Below are positions 32,524 through 62,916 of a stretch of DNA of 64,000 nt, piece by piece. The notes under the pieces are model-generated. The model had not been told where the DNA came from. It was given only the letters and a program-made list of their open reading frames with translations, and searched no databases. Numbering within the stretch: position 1 is the stretch's first letter; every line of letters starts with the position of its first letter. The stretch is from Ensifer sp. WSM1721 (GTDB lineage: Bacteria > Pseudomonadota > Alphaproteobacteria > Rhizobiales > Rhizobiaceae): contig NZ_CP165784.1 in NCBI RefSeq assembly GCF_000513895.2, forward strand, positions 62,001-126,000. The letters are read 5' to 3'. A program made the translations under genes and the position numbers.

Positions 32524-32818
32524 TGTCGTTTGGCAGCTAATCATGAGAATGCGGCTGTTTCGCCTTAGTTTGGCAGGTAATTTGAGAATGGAGCTCAATC
32601 GAACTGTAACGAGAGATATATTCTATCGCATTGTTTCTATTCGATTTTTGCTTCTGCTTTCAAAAAAGTTGTGCGGTGGTGCGCCGGGCTGCCTTCTCAA
32701 ATTAAATGCCAAAATGTCCGGCGTGGGTCTCAAATTAAGTGGCAATTCTCAATTTTGATGCACGGCTAACTATTTGAAATTATTGCATCGCGAGTCTTAC
32801 GATTAAATGCAAACGACA
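32524..32818. repeat. 295-bp IS-like repeat, copy 1 (left of gibberellin locus)
   Basis: The element starts TGTCGTTTGGCAGCTAAT and ends ATTAAATGCAAACGACA, so its termini are imperfect inverted repeats. Inside each end, further copies of a TTTGGCA-TTAAT-TGAGAAT motif occur (inverted at the right side as CTCAAATTAAATGCCAAA), which is the multiple-repeat layout of IS21-family termini. It has no gene of its own. The right end interrupts the 3' end of the ISL3-type transposase remnant. Copy 2, in the same orientation, is at 43572-43867. Confidence 0.85.
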
Positions 32819-34301
32819 ATGGCATCGATATCCCGGCGCAAAAACACGTGCGAAACGCATGATCGCGATGAGATCGGTTTCGATGGCGTCGTCGATCCAG
32901 TCGTCCAGCGCTTCCGAATTCCTGCTGCGCAGGATTCCGTTGAAGCGCATCGCCAAACTCCGCATCTTTGCGAACGCGACCGAGCCCTGCTTCAAGGTAT
33001 CGACTTTTCTTGCCTGACGGTCCGTCAGCAGGCCGCGCGGCTTTATGCATAATGCTGCGGCAACGACAGACGAGATGATATGGCCGGTATCGGGATCACG
33101 AACCGGTTCTGAATCGAATTCTTCTGGAGGAGTGTCATCGGGCTGCACCTTCTCAGCGTCACGCCAGACCTTCAACAAGCGCTCCAGATTGGCACGACTA
33201 CCAGTGTAGCCGCGGTTTTTAATATCGTAAAACACATGGCGTCCAATGCGATTTCCGTCCTTCCAGCATTGAGTCAGGAAGGCTTCAAAATACAATGGTG
33301 ATGTCGAGTTCAAAGTCGCGCGTTGCCGGTCTCGAGGCTTTCTGAAAGTGAGCCAATTCGCGATGCTGCGGCGCTCGTATCCAGTCCGCCGGGCAATCTC
33401 GCTATAAGAAAGTCCTTGTTGGCGCAGGGCGTGAAGCATCTCGAAGATTTCCTGACGCGACTGCCTATGGGCCAAGCGGGCGCGGCGGTGTTGTGCTGTG
33501 GTGCTGGCAATAGCCTCTACTGACAAAATCGGCCTGACATGGGCGTGACCGTAGAGGCTCATCTGTTCCTTGATCGCCGCCCTAAGATTTTGGACCAGGT
33601 GGAAGCGATCAGCCACCTGTTGGGCCTGTGGAGCACCCTCGCGGGCAGCCTGAGCATACAAGCCGCAGCGATCCCGACTGACGACCTCGATAGTGGGGGC
33701 GTTCTTGCAACCACGCCTTTGCGCTCTCTGCGCTGCGGTGGTCCAAAAATATCGACAACCGATCGGCGCTCGAGATCGACCATGATGGTGCCGTACCGCG
33801 TGGAGCGCCGCCAGCTCCAATCATCAATGCCAACCACCTTTATTTCGATTTCTTGGCTGGAGGCAGCAGCATTGCGTTTCGTTTTCCGCAAGGTCGTATC
33901 GTCGCTGATCGGCATTCCGAGCCGATGCATCAAGCGCTCACCAGGCCGACCGCCCATGCTGTGATAATCAGGCCGACAATCTCCGCCATCCTTTCAGTCC
34001 GGCGCGCATAAGACGACGCTATCTTCGGCAACCGATCTGTGAAGGTTCGTCGATTACATTTCCGATGTCTGCACTGCCATCGGCACAGTGAGAGCATAAC
34101 CTTCACGGCCCGCCCCTGAACTGGCAAGTCGTGGAGGCTACGGTTGTGCCAGCCGTGTCGATGACGGCTTCGTGACCCGCAGTCAGGGCAAATTCCGATT
34201 GGTTTTGCAACTGCGGAAACAACCCAATTTTCTTGACCCACAAGGGTGACACCCAGAACCTTTACCCCTGGGCCGGGCGACCATTTCGATTTCCTTCGCA
34301 T
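32819..34301 (-). pseudogene. ISL3-family transposase, multiply frameshifted and 3'-truncated
   Basis: The N-terminus at 34301 has the ISL3 zinc finger (PIGICPDCGSRSRHRHGWHN, then CRWQCRHRKCNRRTF). The DDE region continues in other frames: EIEIKVVGIDDWSWRRSTRY (about 33870), then QQVADRFHLVQNLRAAIKEQ and the long C-terminal part to RSRNSEALDDWIDDA. At least three frame changes occur (about 33940, 33800-33700 and 32870). The protein is cut at RDIDAI by the 295-bp repeat. A possible outer end of the element, reading TGTCGCTTGGCAGATAA on the minus strand, lies at 34386. Confidence 0.85.
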
Positions 34302-34389
34302 TCACGCAGATAGCAATGCGCTCGCTAACACTCTGTTAACCACACAATTTTGAGGAAGAACCCGGTTATCTGCCAAGCGACATCGGGTT

Positions 34390-34405
34390 TGTCGCGTCCG
34401 CGACA
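34390..34405 (+). promoter_or_regulatory. NifA upstream activator sequence
   Basis: TGTCGCGTCCGCGACA is a perfect TGT-N10-ACA NifA binding site, itself highly palindromic. It lies 85 bp upstream of the -24 element at 34491, the normal distance for NifA enhancers. Confidence 0.8.
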
Positions 34406-34490
34406 TGGTGATGTTCGGCCCAGGCGTGCCGCGCTCAGTTAAGACATTGAATGTTGTGCAGAGCAGTTTATCTGAGGCGCTCCCTGCAGT

Positions 34491-34505
34491 TGGCACGATT
34501 CTTGC
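34491..34505 (+). promoter_or_regulatory. sigma-54 (-24/-12) promoter of the gibberellin operon
   Basis: TGGCACGATTCTTGC matches the RpoN consensus TGGCAC-N5-TTGC exactly, including the invariant GG and GC with correct spacing. It ends 64 bp before the CYP112 start codon. With the NifA site upstream, this predicts expression under low-oxygen, nitrogen-fixing conditions. Confidence 0.85.
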
Positions 34506-34569
34506 CGCCCTAGTTGACTGCGGCACACGCCGGCATGCCCTTCCATCGCTTAGAGAGTGGAGTGCCACC

Positions 34570-35772
34570 ATGTACGAACAACCCTTGCCGACGCTGCCGA
34601 TGTGGCGCGTCGATCACATCGAGCCCTCGCCCGAGATGTTGGCGCTATGCGCGAACGGTCCGATCCACAGCGTGCGTTTCCCGTCCGGGCACGAAGGCTG
34701 GTGGGTGACAGGCTACGACGAGGCCAAGGCGGTGCTGTCCGACGCGGCGTTCCGGCCCGCGGGAATCCCGCCGGCGGCATTCACCCCGGATTCGGTGATC
34801 CTCGGTTCGCCAGGATGGCTTGTCTCGCACGAGGGGGGCGAGCATGCCCGGTTACGCACGATCGTGGCGCCGGCCTTCAGCGACCGCAGGGTGAAGCTGC
34901 TCGCGCAGCAGGTCGAGGCGATCGCCGCGCAGTTGTTCGAGACGCTGGCGGCCCAGCCCCAGCCCGCCGACCTGCGGCGCCACCTCTCCTTTCCGCTTCC
35001 GGCCATGGTCATCAGCGCGCTGATGGGCGTGCTCTACGAGGATCACGCCTTTTTCGCCGGGCTGTCCGACGAGGTGATGACGCACCAGCATGAAAGCGGC
35101 CCGCGCAGCGCGTCGCGACTGGCCTGGGAAGAACTGCGTGCCTACATTCGCGGCAAGATGCGGGACAAGCGCAAGGATCCGGGCGACAACCTGCTGACGG
35201 ATCTGCTCGCGGCGGTCGACCAGGGCAAGGCGACCGAGGAAGAGGCGATCGGCTTGGCGGCGGGCATGCTGGTGGCGGGGCACGAGAGCACCGTCGCGCA
35301 GATCGAATTCGGCCTGCTGGCCATGTTCCGCCATCCGCAACAGCGCGAACGCCTGGTCGGCGATCCATCCCTGGTGGACAAGGCGGTGGAGGAAATCCTG
35401 CGCATGTACCCGCCGGGCGCGGGCTGGGACGGCATCATGCGCTATCCCAGGACCGACGTGACCATCGCGGGCGTGCATATTCCCGCGGAGAGCAAGGTGC
35501 TGGTCGGCCTGCCGGCGACATCGTTTGATCCGCGCCATTTTGACGACCCGGAAATCTTCGACATCGGACGCGACGAAAACCCGCATCTGGCGTTCTCCTA
35601 CGGGCCGCACTACTGCATCGGCGTGGCGCTGGCCAGGCTGGAACTCAAGGTGGTGTTCGGTTCGATCTTCCAGCGCTTTCCCGCGCTGCGTCTGGCCGTG
35701 GCGCCCGAAGAACTGAAGCTGCGCAAGGAGATCATCACTGGCGGGTTCGAGGAGTTCCCGGTGCTCTGGTGA
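34570..35772 (+). CDS. cyp112: cytochrome P450 CYP112 (gibberellin C-20 oxidase)
   Basis: This 400-residue soluble bacterial P450 is the first gene of the operon. The I-helix oxygen-binding motif is [15 protein letters not shown] (about 230-245), the K-helix ExxR is EEILR, and the haem ligand is Cys349 in [17 protein letters not shown]. The N-terminus [20 protein letters not shown] matches rhizobial CYP112 proteins. In characterised bacterial pathways CYP112 removes C-20 from GA12 by successive oxidation through GA15 and GA24 to GA9. The ATG at 34570 gives the family length; the frame is open upstream but that sequence holds the promoter. The second P450 gene starts 94 bp downstream. Confidence 0.93.
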
Positions 35773-35866: not shown

Positions 35867-37171
35867 ATGGACGTGCAAGAAACCACGGCAGCATGCCGGG
35901 ACGCCTTCGCCGAACTGGCGTCGCCAGCGTGCATCCACGACCCGTATCCGTTCATGCGGTGGTTGCGCGAGCACGATCCGGTGCATCGCGCGGCGTCGGG
36001 CCTCTTTCTGTTGAGCCGCCACGCCGACATCTACTGGGCGCTCAAGGCCACGGGCGATGCGTTTCGGGGACCGGCGCCGGGCGAACTGGCGCGCTATTTC
36101 CCGCGTGCGGCGACCAGCCTGTCGCTAAATCTGCTGGCGTCCACGCTAGCAATGAAGGACCCACCGACGCATACGCGTCTGCGCCGGCTGATCTCGCGCG
36201 ATTTCACCATGCGCCAGATCGACAACCTGCGGCCGAGCATCGCGCGCATCATCGCAGCGCGCCTGGACGGTATGGCGCCCGCGCTGGAGCGCGGGGAGGC
36301 GGTGGACCTGCATCGGGAATTCGCGCTGGCCTTGCCCATGTTGGTCTTCGCCGAACTGTTCGGCATGCCCCAGGACGATATGTTCGGGCTCGCCACCGGA
36401 ATCCGCGCCATTCTGGAAGGCCTGAACCCGCACGCCAGCGATCCCCAGCTCGCCGCGGCGGACGCGGCCAGCGCCAGGGTGCAGGCCTACTTCAGCGACC
36501 TCATGCAGCGCAAGCGCACCGCTCCTCGCCACGACATCGTGTCGATGCTGGTCGGCGCGCACCACGACGATGCAGACACGCTGTCGGATGCGGAGTTGAT
36601 CAGCATGCTGTGGGGCATGCTGCTGGGCGGCTTCGCCACCACTGCTGCGACCATCGACCATGCGGTGCTGGCGATGCTGGCGTATCCCGAACAGCGGCAC
36701 TGGCTGCAGGGAGACGCCGTGGCGGTGGAGGCATTCGTCGAAGAAGTCCTGCGCTGTGACGCGCCCGTCATGTTCAGCTCCATTCCGCGTATCGCCCAGC
36801 GCGACATCGAACTGGGCGGCGTGGTGATCCCGAAGAACGCGGACGTGCGCGTGCTGATCGCAGCCGGCAATCGCGACCCGGACGCCTTCGCCGATCCCGA
36901 CCGCTTCGATCCCGCGCGGTTCTACGGCACCAGTCCTGGCATGTCGACCGACGGGAAGATCATGCTGAGCTTCGGCCACGGCATCCACTTCTGCCTCGGT
37001 GCGCAACTGGCCCGGGTGCAGTTGGCCGAGAGCCTGCCGCGGATCCAGGCGCGCTTCCCCACGCTGGCGTTAGCCGAGCAGCCGACCCGGGAGCCCTCCG
37101 CGTTCCTTAGGACGTTCCGCGCGCTGCCGGTGCGGCTGCATGCGCAGGGGGGGCTGAGATGCGCGTCGTGA
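35867..37171 (+). CDS. cyp114: cytochrome P450 CYP114 (ent-kaurenoic acid oxidase)
   Basis: This 434-residue P450 has the I-helix motif [18 protein letters not shown] (about 246-263), ExxR in EEVLR, and haem ligand Cys376 in [18 protein letters not shown]. In characterised bacterial pathways CYP114 turns ent-kaurenoic acid into GA12-aldehyde, including the B-ring contraction, and needs the adjacent ferredoxin for efficient turnover. Its end overlaps the ferredoxin start by 13 bases, consistent with coupled translation of the pair. Sequence and position match rhizobial CYP114; no defects were seen. Confidence 0.93.
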
Positions 37172-37467
37172 TCGACCAGGATCTGTGCGGAACCACCGGG
37201 CAGTGCGTGCTGACGCTGCCGGGGACCTTTCGTCAGCGCGAACCGGACGGCGTGGCCGAAGTGTGCGTGGCGAAGGTCCCGCAGGCGCTGCACGCCGCCG
37301 TGCGGCTCGCGGCCAGCCAGTGCCCGGTCGCCGCCATTCAAGTCATCGAAAGCGGCGCTGGCGATGACGAGCGCGCCAGCGCCGACCCTGCGCCTTGTCC
37401 GGCGGAGGCCGAGCGGCATGCCGCGAAAGACAAACGCAATCCAGGAGGACACGATGGGACGGTTTGA
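37159..37467 (+). CDS. [3Fe-4S]-type ferredoxin of the gibberellin operon
   Basis: This 102-residue ferredoxin has cluster ligands Cys10 and Cys16 ([12 protein letters not shown]) and Cys55 ([11 protein letters not shown]), spaced C-x5-C-xn-C-P as in single [3Fe-4S] ferredoxins that serve bacterial P450s. A further Cys36 is present. It provides electrons to the P450s of the operon, CYP114 in particular. The C-terminal 40 residues are an unstructured acidic/basic tail. The gene overlaps CYP114 upstream by 13 bases and the reductase downstream by 14, so the three genes are tightly coupled. Confidence 0.92.
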
Positions 37468-38290
37468 AGGCAAGGTGGCCGTGGTGACCGGCGCCGGCGC
37501 CGGCATCGGCAAAGCATGCGCCCTTGCCATCGCGCGCGAGGGCGGCAGAGTGGTGGTGGCCGACATTGATGGCTCGGCGGCCATTGCCTGCACCGAGCAG
37601 ATCACGGCCGAAGCGGGCCACGCGCTGCCCCTGGCCATGGACATCGCCGATGCGCAGGCGGTGGCAGCACTGTTCGGGACGGCGGAGCGGCACTTCGGTG
37701 GGGTCGACCTGCTGGTGAACAACGCGAGCGCCATGTATCTGACCCCGCGCGACCGCGCGATCCTCGACCTGGACCTGACGGTCTGGGATCAGACCATGGC
37801 GACCAATCTGCGTGGCACGCTGCTTTGCTGTCGGCAGGCCATCCCACAGATGATCGCCCGCGGCGGTGGGGCGATCGTCAACATGTCGTCGTGCCAGGGG
37901 CTCAGCGGTGACACCGGGCAGACGTCCTACGCCGCGTCGAAGGCGGCGATGAACATGCTGTCGGCCTCGCTCGCCACCCAGTACGGTCATGCGCAGATCC
38001 GCTGCAACGCGGTTGCGCCGGGTCTCATCATGACCGAGCGTCTCCTCACCAAGCTGGACGAGTGGATGCAACGGCATCTGCGCCGGCACCAGCTCCTGCC
38101 GCGGGTCGGCCGCCCCGAGGACGTGGCCGCGCTGGTGGCGTTCCTGCTCTCCGACGATGCTGCGTTCATCACCGGCCAGGTCGTGTGCATCGACGGCGGC
38201 ATGCTGGCGCATGTGCCGACGTACGCCGACGGTGGCAACAGCCCCGCCGTGCGGCCTGTCGGCGACACCGCCAAAGCGGAGCGCTGCTGA
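37454..38290 (+). CDS. short-chain dehydrogenase of the gibberellin operon (SDR-GA)
   Basis: This 278-residue classical SDR has the cofactor motif VVTGAGAGIGKACAL (residues about 10-24), the ADP-ribose-binding VVVADIDG, NNAS at about 91, and the catalytic SSCQG...YAASK with Tyr159 and Lys163. The C-terminal VVCIDGGMLAH ends the Rossmann fold. In bacterial gibberellin synthesis this enzyme oxidises GA12-aldehyde to GA12. The ATG at 37454 has AGGAGG 4 bases upstream and lies within the ferredoxin gene. Its stop shares one base with the CYP117 start. Confidence 0.92.
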   Translation: MGRFEGKVAVVTGAGAGIGKACALAIAREGGRVVVADIDGSAAIACTEQITAEAGHALPLAMDIADAQAVAALFGTAERHFGGVDLLVNNASAMYLTPRDRAILDLDLTVWDQTMATNLRGTLLCCRQAIPQMIARGGGAIVNMSSCQGLSGDTGQTSYAASKAAMNMLSASLATQYGHAQIRCNAVAPGLIMTERLLTKLDEWMQRHLRRHQLLPRVGRPEDVAALVAFLLSDDAAFITGQVVCIDGGMLAHVPTYADGGNSPAVRPVGDTAKAERC

Positions 38291-39633
38291 TGGACATGCT
38301 GCTCAACCCGCTGGACCGTCGGCACAGGCTGCGGTACGACATCCCGGTCGTGCCCGGCGCTTTCCCCCTTGTCGGGCATCTTCCCGCCATCGTCTGCGAC
38401 CTGCCGCGCCTGCTGCAGCGCGCGGAGCGGATGCTGGGCAGCCACTTCTGGCTGGATTTCGGCCCTGCCGGACGCCTGATGACCTGCATGGATCCGGATG
38501 CGTTCGCACTGCTCCGGCACAAGGACGTGTCCTCCGCGCTGATCGAGGAGATCGCGCCCGAACTGCTTGGCGGAACGTTGGTCGCCCAGGACGGCGGCCC
38601 GCACCGGCAGGCCCGCGATGCAATAAAGGCGGCGTTTCTGCCCAAGGGGCTTACGCAGGCCGGCATCGGCGACCTGTTCGCGCCCGTCATCGGGGCGCGG
38701 GTGCAGGCGTGGCGCGACCGCGGCGTCGTGACCATCCTGCGCGAAACCGGGGACCTGATGCTCAAGCTCATCTTCAGCCTCATGGGAATCCCCACGCAGG
38801 ACCTGCCGGGATGGCATCGCAAGTACCGACAATTGCTGCAGTTGATCGTCGCGCCCCGGGTCGACCTGCCCGGACTGCCCTTGCGGCGCGGCCGCGCCGC
38901 CCGCGACTGGATCGACGCGCAGTTGCGCCAGTTCGTCCGCGACGCGCGCGTGCATGCCACGCGCACCGGGTTGATCAACGACATGGTGAGCGCCTTCGAT
39001 CGCAGCGACGATGCGCTCTCCGATGACGTCCTGGTCGCCAATATCCGCGCGCTGCTGCTTGCCGGTCACGACACCACCGCCTCGACGATGGCCTGGATGG
39101 TGATCGAGCTGGCGCGGCAGCCTGTGCTGTGGGACGCCCTGGTCGAGGAGGCGCAACGCGTGGGCGCGGTGCCGACCCAGCACGCGGACCTGGCGCAGTG
39201 TCCGGTCGCCGAGGCGCTGTTCCGCGAGACGCTGCGCATGCATCCGGCGGTCACGCTCCTGCCGCGTCGCGCGCTGCAGGAATTGCAACTCGGCCAACGG
39301 CGCATTCCCGCGGGCACCGATCTGTGCATCCCGCTGCTGCATTTCTCGACCTCGGCGCTGCTGCACGAGGCGCCTGATCAGTTCCGCCTGGCGCGGTGGC
39401 TGCAACGCACGGAGCCAATCCGGCCGGTGGACTTGCTGCAGTTCGGTGCCGGCCCACACGTCTGCATCGGCTACCACCTGGTATGGCTGGAAATGGTGCA
39501 GTTCTGCATCGCCTTGGCGCTGACCATGCACAAGGCCGGGGTGCGGCCGCGATTGCTGAGCGGCGTCGAAAAAGGCCGGCGCTATTATCCGACCGCACAT
39601 CCGTCCATGACAATCCGCATCGGATTCTCATGA
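38290..39633 (+). CDS. cyp117: cytochrome P450 CYP117 (ent-kaurene oxidase)
   Basis: This 447-residue P450 has the I-helix motif LLLAGHDTTASTMAWM (about 257-272), ExxR in RETLR, and haem ligand Cys392 in FGAGPHVCIGYHLVWLE. In characterised bacteria CYP117 catalyses the three-step oxidation of ent-kaurene to ent-kaurenoic acid, the first oxidative step. The N-terminus MDMLLNPLDRRHRLRYDIPV fits the family; an ATG two codons later is an alternative. There is no membrane anchor, unlike the plant enzyme. The start overlaps the preceding stop as TGATG. Confidence 0.93.
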   Translation: MDMLLNPLDRRHRLRYDIPVVPGAFPLVGHLPAIVCDLPRLLQRAERMLGSHFWLDFGPAGRLMTCMDPDAFALLRHKDVSSALIEEIAPELLGGTLVAQDGGPHRQARDAIKAAFLPKGLTQAGIGDLFAPVIGARVQAWRDRGVVTILRETGDLMLKLIFSLMGIPTQDLPGWHRKYRQLLQLIVAPRVDLPGLPLRRGRAARDWIDAQLRQFVRDARVHATRTGLINDMVSAFDRSDDALSDDVLVANIRALLLAGHDTTASTMAWMVIELARQPVLWDALVEEAQRVGAVPTQHADLAQCPVAEALFRETLRMHPAVTLLPRRALQELQLGQRRIPAGTDLCIPLLHFSTSALLHEAPDQFRLARWLQRTEPIRPVDLLQFGAGPHVCIGYHLVWLEMVQFCIALALTMHKAGVRPRLLSGVEKGRRYYPTAHPSMTIRIGFS

Positions 39634-39775
39634 GCTGGCATCGCGCGTGTGGCGAGGCAGCGGCGCCGGCGACGCGCGGCGTTGCTGCACTCGGTGCGAC
39701 GCCGGCAACATCGCCGCGGCTCGCGGCTCGCCGCTCGCCGTGGCCGTCTCCTGTCAGGTACAAGGACATAACAAC

Positions 39776-43275
<3,500 letters not shown>

Positions 43276-45201: not shown

Positions 45202-46218
45202 TCACGCGGTACCCTGCGCCCAATCCAACACGATGAATGGTTCATCGATGTGACGCGCCATAATGTCTGCGTACAGCCTTTCCGGATTTTCGGGTGTAGT
45301 GCTGCGGATCAGGCCGTCGAGCGGGATCTTGCCTTCAGCCAGCCACTCGAGGGCGCGGGAAAAGCCGTTGAAAATCGAGTGCGGCGCCTTGTTATAGCCT
45401 TCTAGCAGCTCTTCCCATAGGAAGTTGCGGCCGTGCATGGGAAGCTCCCATTCCCAGCCCGAACGCAACGTGACGTGGTTGAAGAACACGGCGTTCAACA
45501 CGTCATGAGCTGTAAGATCGGTATATTTCCGCCAAGGGACGCCAACGAGGACCACTTCGCCCATGCGGCGGACGATGCGGCAGCCTTCCAGCACGGCGCC
45601 CTCGTGACCCGAGCAGTCGACCACGAGCGCGACCTTGCCCTGAAGGTCGGGATCATCAAGCGGCATCGCTGCGCGGGTATCGACAATGCCGCTTTTCACC
45701 AACTGTTCGCGCCGCAAGGGGTCGGGATCGACCACGGTGACGCGGTAGCCGCCGATCCGGAACAGATGGGCGGCGACGAAACCGACGGGGCCAGCCCCCG
45801 TTACGACGACGCGATCGCCAGGCCGCGCCTTTGTAGTCATCAACGTGGTCATCGACACGCCCATTAGCCGTGCTATGACGGCAATCTCGGGCGCCATGCC
45901 TTCCGGCAGGGGAAGCGTGTTTTCGGCCGCGTGCGTCTGGACAGACCGGTGATAGCCCATCGCAAAGCGCCGTTCACCGCGTTTCACGCCGGTCACGTCT
46001 TCGCCGATTTCTTCGACCTCGAATACCGCCGCATAGCCGGGCCTTACCGGGAAGCTGTCGCCGTTGGCCCAGCCGATCTCGGTGCCCTGGCTGATCAACG
46101 TGCACAGCGTTCGGCCTCGGACTTCGCCGCTATGCAACGGCTGATCCTCGTAAGACTGGAGCGTAAAGGTCTGGCGGGCGGGGATGATGATTTCAATTGG
46201 CATGGGCAGGGCTTTCAC
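45202..46218 (-). CDS. zinc-type alcohol dehydrogenase-like oxidoreductase (MDR)
   Basis: This 338-residue medium-chain dehydrogenase has a GroES-like N-terminal domain (about 1-115), an NAD(P) domain with VVVTGAGPVGFVAAHLFRIG (about 137-156), then TVVDPDPLRREQ and VALVVDCSGHEGAV. The canonical catalytic zinc residues of alcohol dehydrogenases are not evident, as in many sugar- or polyol-associated members. Its start overlaps by four bases the tail of a sugar-type ABC ATPase remnant, so it was probably the last gene of a sugar uptake and oxidation operon whose front has been lost. MPIEIIIPAR at 46203 is an alternative start. Confidence 0.82.
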   Translation of the reverse strand: MKALPMPIEIIIPARQTFTLQSYEDQPLHSGEVRGRTLCTLISQGTEIGWANGDSFPVRPGYAAVFEVEEIGEDVTGVKRGERRFAMGYHRSVQTHAAENTLPLPEGMAPEIAVIARLMGVSMTTLMTTKARPGDRVVVTGAGPVGFVAAHLFRIGGYRVTVVDPDPLRREQLVKSGIVDTRAAMPLDDPDLQGKVALVVDCSGHEGAVLEGCRIVRRMGEVVLVGVPWRKYTDLTAHDVLNAVFFNHVTLRSGWEWELPMHGRNFLWEELLEGYNKAPHSIFNGFSRALEWLAEGKIPLDGLIRSTTPENPERLYADIMARHIDEPFIVLDWAQGTA

Positions 46219-46510
46219 GGGAGGAGCGTATTGCCGGTCGCGGCATCGAAGAGATGCAGCGCGGCCGCAATGAAGGTGACATGAACCGATGCATCGTTCG
46301 CCGGTCGGTTTGCCGCGGGGACCTGCGCGATCAGTTCATGCGGGCCGACACGGAGGTCGAGAAGAGCATCGTCGCCGAGATATTCCGTTACCTCGACCGT
46401 GGCCCGCAGCGCGTTGGGAGCATCGGGCATCGTCAACGTGACGTCGGATGGCCGTATCCCGATCAGCAGGGTCTGGCCCTCTGTTGGTACGGGGTAAACT
46501 TGGTGATGCG
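46215..46510 (-). pseudogene. C-terminal (TOBE) remnant of a sugar ABC transporter ATPase
   Basis: The segment encodes EGQTLLIGIRPSDVTLTM and LRATVEVTEYLGDDALLDLR, ending HLFDAATGNTLLP, the MalK/UgpC-type regulatory (TOBE) domain. The nucleotide-binding domain with Walker motifs, about 250 residues, is missing. It overlaps the dehydrogenase start by four bases, preserving the original operon junction. Confidence 0.8.
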
Positions 46511-46849
46511 CCCTTCCCATAGAATGCGATCTGACGAAGATCTCACATGTTGTTTCCGTTCTTTGTTTCATCCATCGCGGCTAACCGCCATCAGTGATGG
46601 TCGGCAGTTGCTGCCGCCACTCCCCAGCGAGGAGATACAAAACTCGTGCCAATTTGTCTGATCGACGTGAAGAAGAAATTTGTTATTGCTTTTCAGCCAA
46701 TTAGCCACAGGAACAAAAGATCGGCTGAACAAGATCGTGTGTCACGGACCCGACAAAGCCGGCAGCCGGCGCGGATCTGGTGCTGGACGATGAATATACG
46801 AAGCTGAGGCGAACGCGGAAATAAAAGTGCCCGCCGTTGGCAGCGAGAT

Positions 46850-61554: not shown

Positions 61555-62916
61555 TTATGCTGACACAGCAATTGGAGCATCGGTGTCCTGTTCCACACTC
61601 GCTTCCATAGCCTGAAATAGGTGATCCGTCTTCACCTCTCCGTCAATCGACCAAAGCGCAGCTTTCAGCCGCTCGGCGCTAGAACCGGCCATACGACCCC
61701 GAGCTATCCACGTGAACTTGTCGTGCAGGTCCTGGTCCGAGAGCGGGTTAGACGGTTCGCCCTTGGGTGCCAGGATGTCAAGATGGTCGCATCGCCCAGC
61801 GTAACGTATGCGGACGGCGGCCGGTGTCATGGCCGGAAATGAAGGGTCCAGGTCCGGACGATGCACCAGTTTAATCCGACGCGCGAGTGAGGTGACGCGA
61901 GTATCGTTTAGAAACTCCGCAGTCACGGGCAACAGTGCCTTTGCACCATGTACCAGCGCGAGGGCTACGGAAAACGGGATACTGTACTGCGCCACCTCAA
62001 TTGACTCCGGCTCAGATTTGTTGATCAGCGTCAAAGCCCGTGCAAACAAGCCGATTTCGATCTCCACGATCTCTTCAACGCCAATGGCGTGCTTTGCTTG
62101 AAGAGCGAGGGCTCCGTCAATGGGAGCGTGTGCCCAGCGGCATGCGCTATATATCTTGAAATACCCTTTCTCGATCTCCCAGCCGGTTCCCAAGTTCGCT
62201 ACCAAGCGGTTCTGGTCATAACGCTCAGGATCATCGAGGAGATCGAGAGGTCCGGTGTAACCGGCCACAGCCAGATCGAGCGCCATGAGGGCGTTCGCTG
62301 TTGCGAACGCGATGCCTTCTTTCACTGCGTGGCCGACCTTCGTCCAGCCGGTGGCGGATTGGCTGCTTGCTGTGTGGCCCGCAATCGCCATTGCCTCGGC
62401 AATGATGTTTGTTGGGAGCCGTTTCAGCCATCCTACCGCTGCCACCACCCCGTAGCCGCACCATCTGCCAGTATCGGTCGTCCGAATCGAATTGATGTCT
62501 CTCGCTGCAGATATCCTAAGCGCAATCTCGTAACCGAGAGCAATCGCTGCAAGCATTCGAGCGGGATTGGCCCCTTCGATCTCTGCAACAGTCAGGACAG
62601 CCGGAACGATTGCTGCGCCCGGATGACCGGCTGCGGCACGATGGCCATCGTCGAGATCGAGCATGGAGGCGTATGCGGAGTTGACGAAGGCTGCCGCCGC
62701 AGTTCTGAGTCGGACGTCTGAGAACCAGACGCGACCGGCACCTTCGCCCCACGACACGGTGGCGCCAGCTAAGGCTGCAGCTCCTGCCGCAGTAGCGGCG
62801 CCAGCTATTGCGGCCCCGACGGTATCGAGCAAAACTCTTTTCGCGGCGTGTCTTGCCGCAGTTGGAATTTCAGTGACCGAAGAGACGAAGGTGGCCAGTT
62901 CAACGGTGCGATTCAT
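61555..62916 (-). CDS. MmgE/PrpD family protein
   Basis: This 453-residue protein has the family's helical N-terminal domain (AAKRVLLDTVGAAIAGAATA, LRTAAAAFVNSAYASMLDLDDGH and HPGAAIVPAVLTVAE). Members include 2-methylcitrate dehydratase and cis-aconitate decarboxylase, which act on tricarboxylic acids, and other members act on different substrates. The start at 62916 has GAGAGGATC upstream and gives the usual length. It stands divergent from the M24 peptidase gene with the regulon operators between them. The iclR gene follows it. Confidence 0.88.
   Translation of the reverse strand: MNRTVELATFVSSVTEIPTAARHAAKRVLLDTVGAAIAGAATAAGAAALAGATVSWGEGAGRVWFSDVRLRTAAAAFVNSAYASMLDLDDGHRAAAGHPGAAIVPAVLTVAEIEGANPARMLAAIALGYEIALRISAARDINSIRTTDTGRWCGYGVVAAVGWLKRLPTNIIAEAMAIAGHTASSQSATGWTKVGHAVKEGIAFATANALMALDLAVAGYTGPLDLLDDPERYDQNRLVANLGTGWEIEKGYFKIYSACRWAHAPIDGALALQAKHAIGVEEIVEIEIGLFARALTLINKSEPESIEVAQYSIPFSVALALVHGAKALLPVTAEFLNDTRVTSLARRIKLVHRPDLDPSFPAMTPAAVRIRYAGRCDHLDILAPKGEPSNPLSDQDLHDKFTWIARGRMAGSSAERLKAALWSIDGEVKTDHLFQAMEASVEQDTDAPIAVSA

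Follow-up and report, generated by a model that had tools for sequence, protein, structure and literature searches.

We analysed a window of 64,000 nucleotides from Ensifer sp. WSM1721 (positions 62,001 to 126,000 of contig NZ_CP165784.1, here called C3, 584,844 bp), in which a set of diterpenoid biosynthesis genes lies on the plus strand. The first operon gene, cyp112 (34570-35772), was recognized by its reading frame, its p450 domain and 80 related loci, and was followed by cyp114 (35867-37171; frame and domain, in the order of the NGR234 annotation). The place of the ferredoxin gene was taken by a frame of 102 amino acids (37159-37467), identified by position only, as that of the annotated NGR234 ferredoxin. 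Next came a short-chain dehydrogenase gene, sdr (37454-38290; frame and domain, with the start picked by likeness to relatives), then cyp117 (38290-39633) and the geranylgeranyl diphosphate synthase gene ggps (39773-40771), both assigned by frame and domain and with starts inferred from NGR234. The last genes encode a copalyl diphosphate synthase-like protein (cps, 40826-42376; frame and domain) and a kaurene synthase-like protein with a terpene synthase domain (ks, 42373-43275); we presume these two names from the positions in the known operon. The gene order cyp112, cyp114, ferredoxin, sdr, cyp117, ggps, cps and ks, with open frames, is that of the rhizobial gibberellin operon type.

Two regulatory motifs on the plus strand precede cyp112, and their coordinates and spacings proved to be exactly those given in the initial annotation. 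The first is a NifA-type UAS, TGT-N10-ACA (TGTCGCGTCCGCGACA, 34390-34405), which forms a perfect 7+7 palindrome. The second is a sigma-54 -24/-12 element, TGGCAC-N5-TTGC (TGGCACGATTCTTGC, 34491-34505), separated from the UAS by 85 bp and from the cyp112 ATG (34570) by 64 bp. Its GG and GC are 10 bp apart, as required for a sigma-54 promoter. From start to start the UAS and the -24 are 100 bp apart, not 102, inside the range of 60-180 bp of other pairs on the plasmid. On a matrix built from the 16 published promoters in Table 1 of PMC3538637, the element scored 19.4 bits, and the training promoters themselves scored 17.1-25.9; its -12 reads TTGCC, while the consensus printed there is TTGCW. Judged from the position of this element, transcription would start near 34517.

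The motifs differed greatly in weight when taken singly and together. In the window, TGT-N10-ACA occurred 8 times against 6.89 expected, and TGGCAC-N5-TTGC once against 0.21 expected, with at least one occurrence in 20 of 100 shuffles; genome-wide, the latter pattern was found 26 times and its reversed form 11 times. Each motif alone, being near chance, is weak evidence, but the pair is beyond chance: 20,000 random 300-bp sequences contained none. On contig C3, 19 sigma-54 sites scored 16 bits or more, and 12 of these had a TGT-N10-ACA at 60-180 bp upstream, whereas ten first-order Markov controls had 0-4 sites (mean 2.2) and no pairs. The nifH promoter (site 392274) was among these 12 pairs, as was the one at 436359, just behind nifA; from their proteins we take the gene at that site to be nifB and the gene at site 430666 to be fixA. 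C3 is a symbiotic replicon: besides nifH and nifA, the latter above its curated cut-off, it bears one of the two rpoN genes of the genome.

The motifs belong to a larger unit (34383 to about 34533, plus strand) that comprises the UAS, the spacer, the -24/-12 element and the start of the leader, as defined by homologous copies; comparing peptide loci and cyp115 ends fixed its right border. When 34375-34569 was searched by BLAST against plasmids, 82 records matched, 60 of them listed. Among the matches listed, many covered the last 47 bp only, and others were 71-79% copies of the upstream part, found beside other genes on symbiotic plasmids of Mesorhizobium, Sinorhizobium, Bradyrhizobium, Microvirga and Rhizobium. 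TGT-N10-ACA was present in 9 of 10 aligned copies and TTGGCa in nearly all, and copies in other contexts (71-81% identity) retained both the UAS and the -24/-12 element. On the minus strand, 34440-34452 differed by one mismatch from WATCAANNNNTTR, which we assume to be the IHF consensus; the chance of such a site in 85 nt is 0.018, and it was seen in 9 of the 20 other module copies evaluated and missing from 11. Module matches were present in 22 of the 33 genomes of the genus; in 13 the copies had 89-100% identity and, judged by their downstream sequence, all belonged to the gibberellin-operon type, and the best copy outside this type reached 81%. The family count was at least 15 of 394 genomes, a lower bound because two candidates per genome were scored, and one genome of another genus had a gibberellin-type copy. 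The plasmid search also found a gibberellin-type copy in Rhizobium sp. 007.

We inspected 48 module loci (29, plus 19 on the other strand), of which 20 were non-gibberellin loci with a match of at least 69 nt. In 10 of these 20 longer copies, an ORF of the type MKTDMSAYGVxELTPEEASAxSGG, with a double-glycine leader, started within 450 bp; the ten loci represent 9 distinct ones, L133 and L157 being apparently identical. No such ORF was seen in the other 10, so the identity of the donor is less sure than the capture. The peptide family was found behind the module at L132, L133, L134, L135, L156, L158, L159, L163 and L165, some of which adjoin a C39-type exporter. By annotation, an HlyD-type adaptor and a peptidase-domain ABC transporter lie downstream at L132 and L133, and the Peptidase_C39 domain of the L132 transporter was confirmed. 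Four peptides were compared with domain models; no match exceeded a curated cut-off, and a class IIb bacteriocin model matched two of them below threshold. At peptide loci such as L132, L133, L156 and L163, the DNA is homologous to the module from the UAS through the -12 into the leader. There the module serves small peptide genes, whereas in the window it is followed by cyp112 and not by a peptide gene with a C39 exporter. One pattern search detected no double-glycine peptide in C3, and the exporter had only matches of about 30-39% identity in the strain's own genome, the best at 30%; general ABC transporters accounted for most of these. In the open literature we found no paper describing the loci that combine module and peptide.

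The right side of the module ends in a scar. The module extends to about 34533, and its end, GCGGCACACGCCG, is common to L156. At 34537-34559 (plus strand), GCCCTTCCATCGCTTAGAGAGTG matches C3:514340-514362 exactly over 23 bp and represents the 3' end of cyp115 (TAG at 34551-34553) with the bases that follow. The joint lies between the shared leader (to about 34533) and the cyp115 end (from 34537), and GCCGG on both of its sides would make a microhomology join possible. The intact cyp115 (C3:513124-514353), about 416 kb away, has the same tail as the relic and shares 96% identity with the P450 that precedes the CCBAU 83666 operon; no NifA-type promoter was found in the 700 bp upstream of it. 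At C3:513124-514420, the intact gene is followed by a cyp112 piece and lies downstream of an ISL3-like end, and in CCBAU 83666 the like piece stands directly before the operon. The name cyp115 was given because the gene resembles the one that precedes cyp112 in Xanthomonas, and after PMC7273348, according to which cyp115 remnants occupy the same place in almost all alpha-rhizobial operons. A derivation of the -12 element from cyp115 itself, considered for the resemblance of ATTC-GCTGCCC to ATTCTTGCTGCCC, was dropped because a peptide-locus copy has both the element and the leader after it; moreover, identity to cyp115 begins only at 34537.

We examined 85 cyp112 loci (80 kept of 137 from the genome-contig scan, four plasmid loci and the window). 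The promoter, with its pair at 76-80 bp, recurred in part of them only (8 of 85), and the notion that it is common to rhizobial gibberellin operons was rejected. Besides the window, the carriers were two S. fredii strains (NGR234 and CCBAU 83666), S. kostiense, E. sesbaniae and another three strains of Ensifer. Their -24 reads TGGCAC in two (the window and E. sesbaniae), TGGTAC in five and TGGCGC in one; because it deviates in 6 of the 7 other carriers, the group may be losing promoter strength. In 17 of the other 77 loci, among which R7A itself is not included, a nifH-type -24/-12 element was found 385-455 bp before cyp112, in contrast to 79 bp in the window, and 10 of the 17 had an exact UAS. 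BLAST with the strain's own nifH region revealed that all 17 have the promoter and the first 49-60 nifH codons fused upstream of cyp112; in one of them, L042, the match begins at the -24 element. Two Bradyrhizobium loci share the nifH fragment but have another -24/-12 element and an exact UAS. Under a looser rule with an exact UAS, applied to 49 of the remaining 58 loci, pairs appeared in two, L046 (19.1 bits) and L060 (11.7 bits); for the 9 loci left, among them L090 with 91 bp of upstream DNA, coverage was that of the first pattern and matrix scans. The cyp112 tree had a star-like backbone and the module group took 3 changes in the best tree and 1 forced by starred branches; such a tree is compatible with one origin of the group as well as with several. 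In many loci cyp112 is also preceded, at -375 to -644 (e.g., at -543 in L070), by TCGGCACGCGATTTGCT, a weaker sigma-54-like string that lacks TGG and has no exact UAS paired to it. In S. fredii CCBAU 45436 (L131), the module stands before an operon whose first annotated genes are a 454-aa P450 gene and then ferredoxin; cyp112 was not detected there by tblastn with the first 100 residues.

Could the operon be driven from elsewhere? The insertion sequence remnant that the initial annotation placed immediately upstream is indeed there: an ISL3-type transposase in two frames (32780-34382, minus strand, end approximate), ending 7 bp before the TGT of the UAS. Some insertion elements carry outward promoters, and an outward promoter or read-through from this remnant could drive the operon and leave the NifA site as a silent relic. 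We consider this improbable: a sigma-70-type scan of 34150-34600 gave a single promoter-like site, on the minus strand and directed away, and the canonical TGGCAC has been retained in the window though it is lost in other loci. It is slightly less probable still that the sigma-54 element responds to an enhancer-binding protein other than NifA. At least 7 more proteins of the genome strongly match the NifA model, yet below its cut-off; the UAS fits TGT-N10-ACA, the NifA consensus as printed in PMC4999443. The same type of UAS also stands before nifH on the plasmid. It likewise precedes the gene that we call nifB. A coincidence of two motifs is scarcely credible, even with each near expectation singly, in view of the pair statistics on C3 and in random sequences and the conservation of the entire module in unrelated loci.

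NifA control of gibberellin operons is already in print for M. loti R7A (lacZ) and B. diazoefficiens (transcript data) and is not new in kind. The diterpenoid operon msi071-msi064 of R7A has the promoter TTGGCACGAGTTTTGAA, and in nodules msi071::lacZ gave 618.4 units in the wild type, 646.0 in the nifA1 mutant and 6.3 in the nifA2 mutant (PMC3538637). The two operons share their type and a UAS plus -24/-12, with NifA dependence shown by lacZ in nodules for R7A; the R7A -24/-12 as printed is that of nifH, whereas the promoter of our strain comes from another module. In B. diazoefficiens, cyp112 and cyp114 are listed as NifA+RpoN targets after Hauser 2007, while the rows of sdr and cyp117 are unmarked (PMC6515984 Table 2), so the two P450 genes are common to that regulon and the window. 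One column of the nifA/nifH mutant nodule table gives -4.5 for cyp112 and -4.2 for cyp114 in log2 (PMC4926349 Table 3), the start of blr2143 was mapped in nodules only (PMC4842269), and nodule-only expression is described for the B. japonicum operon (PMC6278637). The related Bradyrhizobium loci had no UAS/-24/-12 pair by the patterns used; the B. diazoefficiens promoter therefore differs or is too divergent for these patterns, and NifA control is conceivable even where no motif is seen. The cytochrome P450 gene cpx, which may or may not be part of this operon, is among the predicted NifA targets in several Rhizobiales (PMC4999443). In PMC7273348, "NifA" occurs only as a grant agency and "promoter" once, in a general sentence; a term search of the main text of the NGR234 bacteroid paper (PMC3732241) did not find the operon. 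In the open literature, no paper dealing with the promoter of S. fredii-type operons was found.

Taken together, the pair beyond chance, the nifA and rpoN genes on the plasmid, the conserved module and the NifA-tied orthologous operons favour the NifA/RpoN switch proposed in the initial annotation; we consider this mechanism very likely correct, and it adds a further lineage to what is known of such control. Most probably, 34383-34533 is a working NifA/sigma-54 promoter that was taken as a unit from a symbiotic promoter family and joined to the decayed end of cyp115. The donor would be a family many of whose members precede genes for double-glycine-leader peptides. In bacteroids that fix nitrogen at low oxygen, NifA would bind 34390-34405 and be brought into contact with RpoN polymerase at 34491-34505 by bending of the DNA, to which IHF near 34446 may contribute; transcription of the operon, presumably in its whole length, would then start at about 34517. 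The apparently foreign origin of the promoter, unlike the nifH-derived one of Mesorhizobium-type operons, is the less expected part. This origin also seems to be the new part, as we found no account of it. With the module in our strain and the nifH promoter in 17 loci, promoter capture probably brought the operon under NifA on two or more occasions. We also lean towards a broader reading in which the module is the native switch of undescribed, nodule-expressed and C39-exported double-glycine peptides, and the gibberellin operon became bacteroid-specific through convergent capture, here at the cyp115 scar and separately from nifH. A horizontally mobile hormone operon may reach nodule-specific timing by acquiring local nitrogen-fixation promoters, with sources that differ by lineage, and not by retaining a single promoter throughout. 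The delayed expression of rhizobial gibberellin genes becomes testable by promoter deletion, and attention is drawn to an exported peptide family that may be made in bacteroids.

Two further sites on C3 were observed. At C3:191520, on the minus strand, a NifA/sigma-54 pair lies 76 bp before a frame of 2153 codons, presumably a non-ribosomal peptide synthetase gene. In the window, at 46484-46761 (minus strand), a second NifA-type promoter, with the UAS TGTCGGGTCCGTGACA and TTGGCACGAGTTTTGTA, is followed by a broken nifH start; this region has 71.6% identity to the strain's own nifH region over 285 bp and precedes an ABC-ATPase-like tail and a zinc-binding dehydrogenase (45202-46218).
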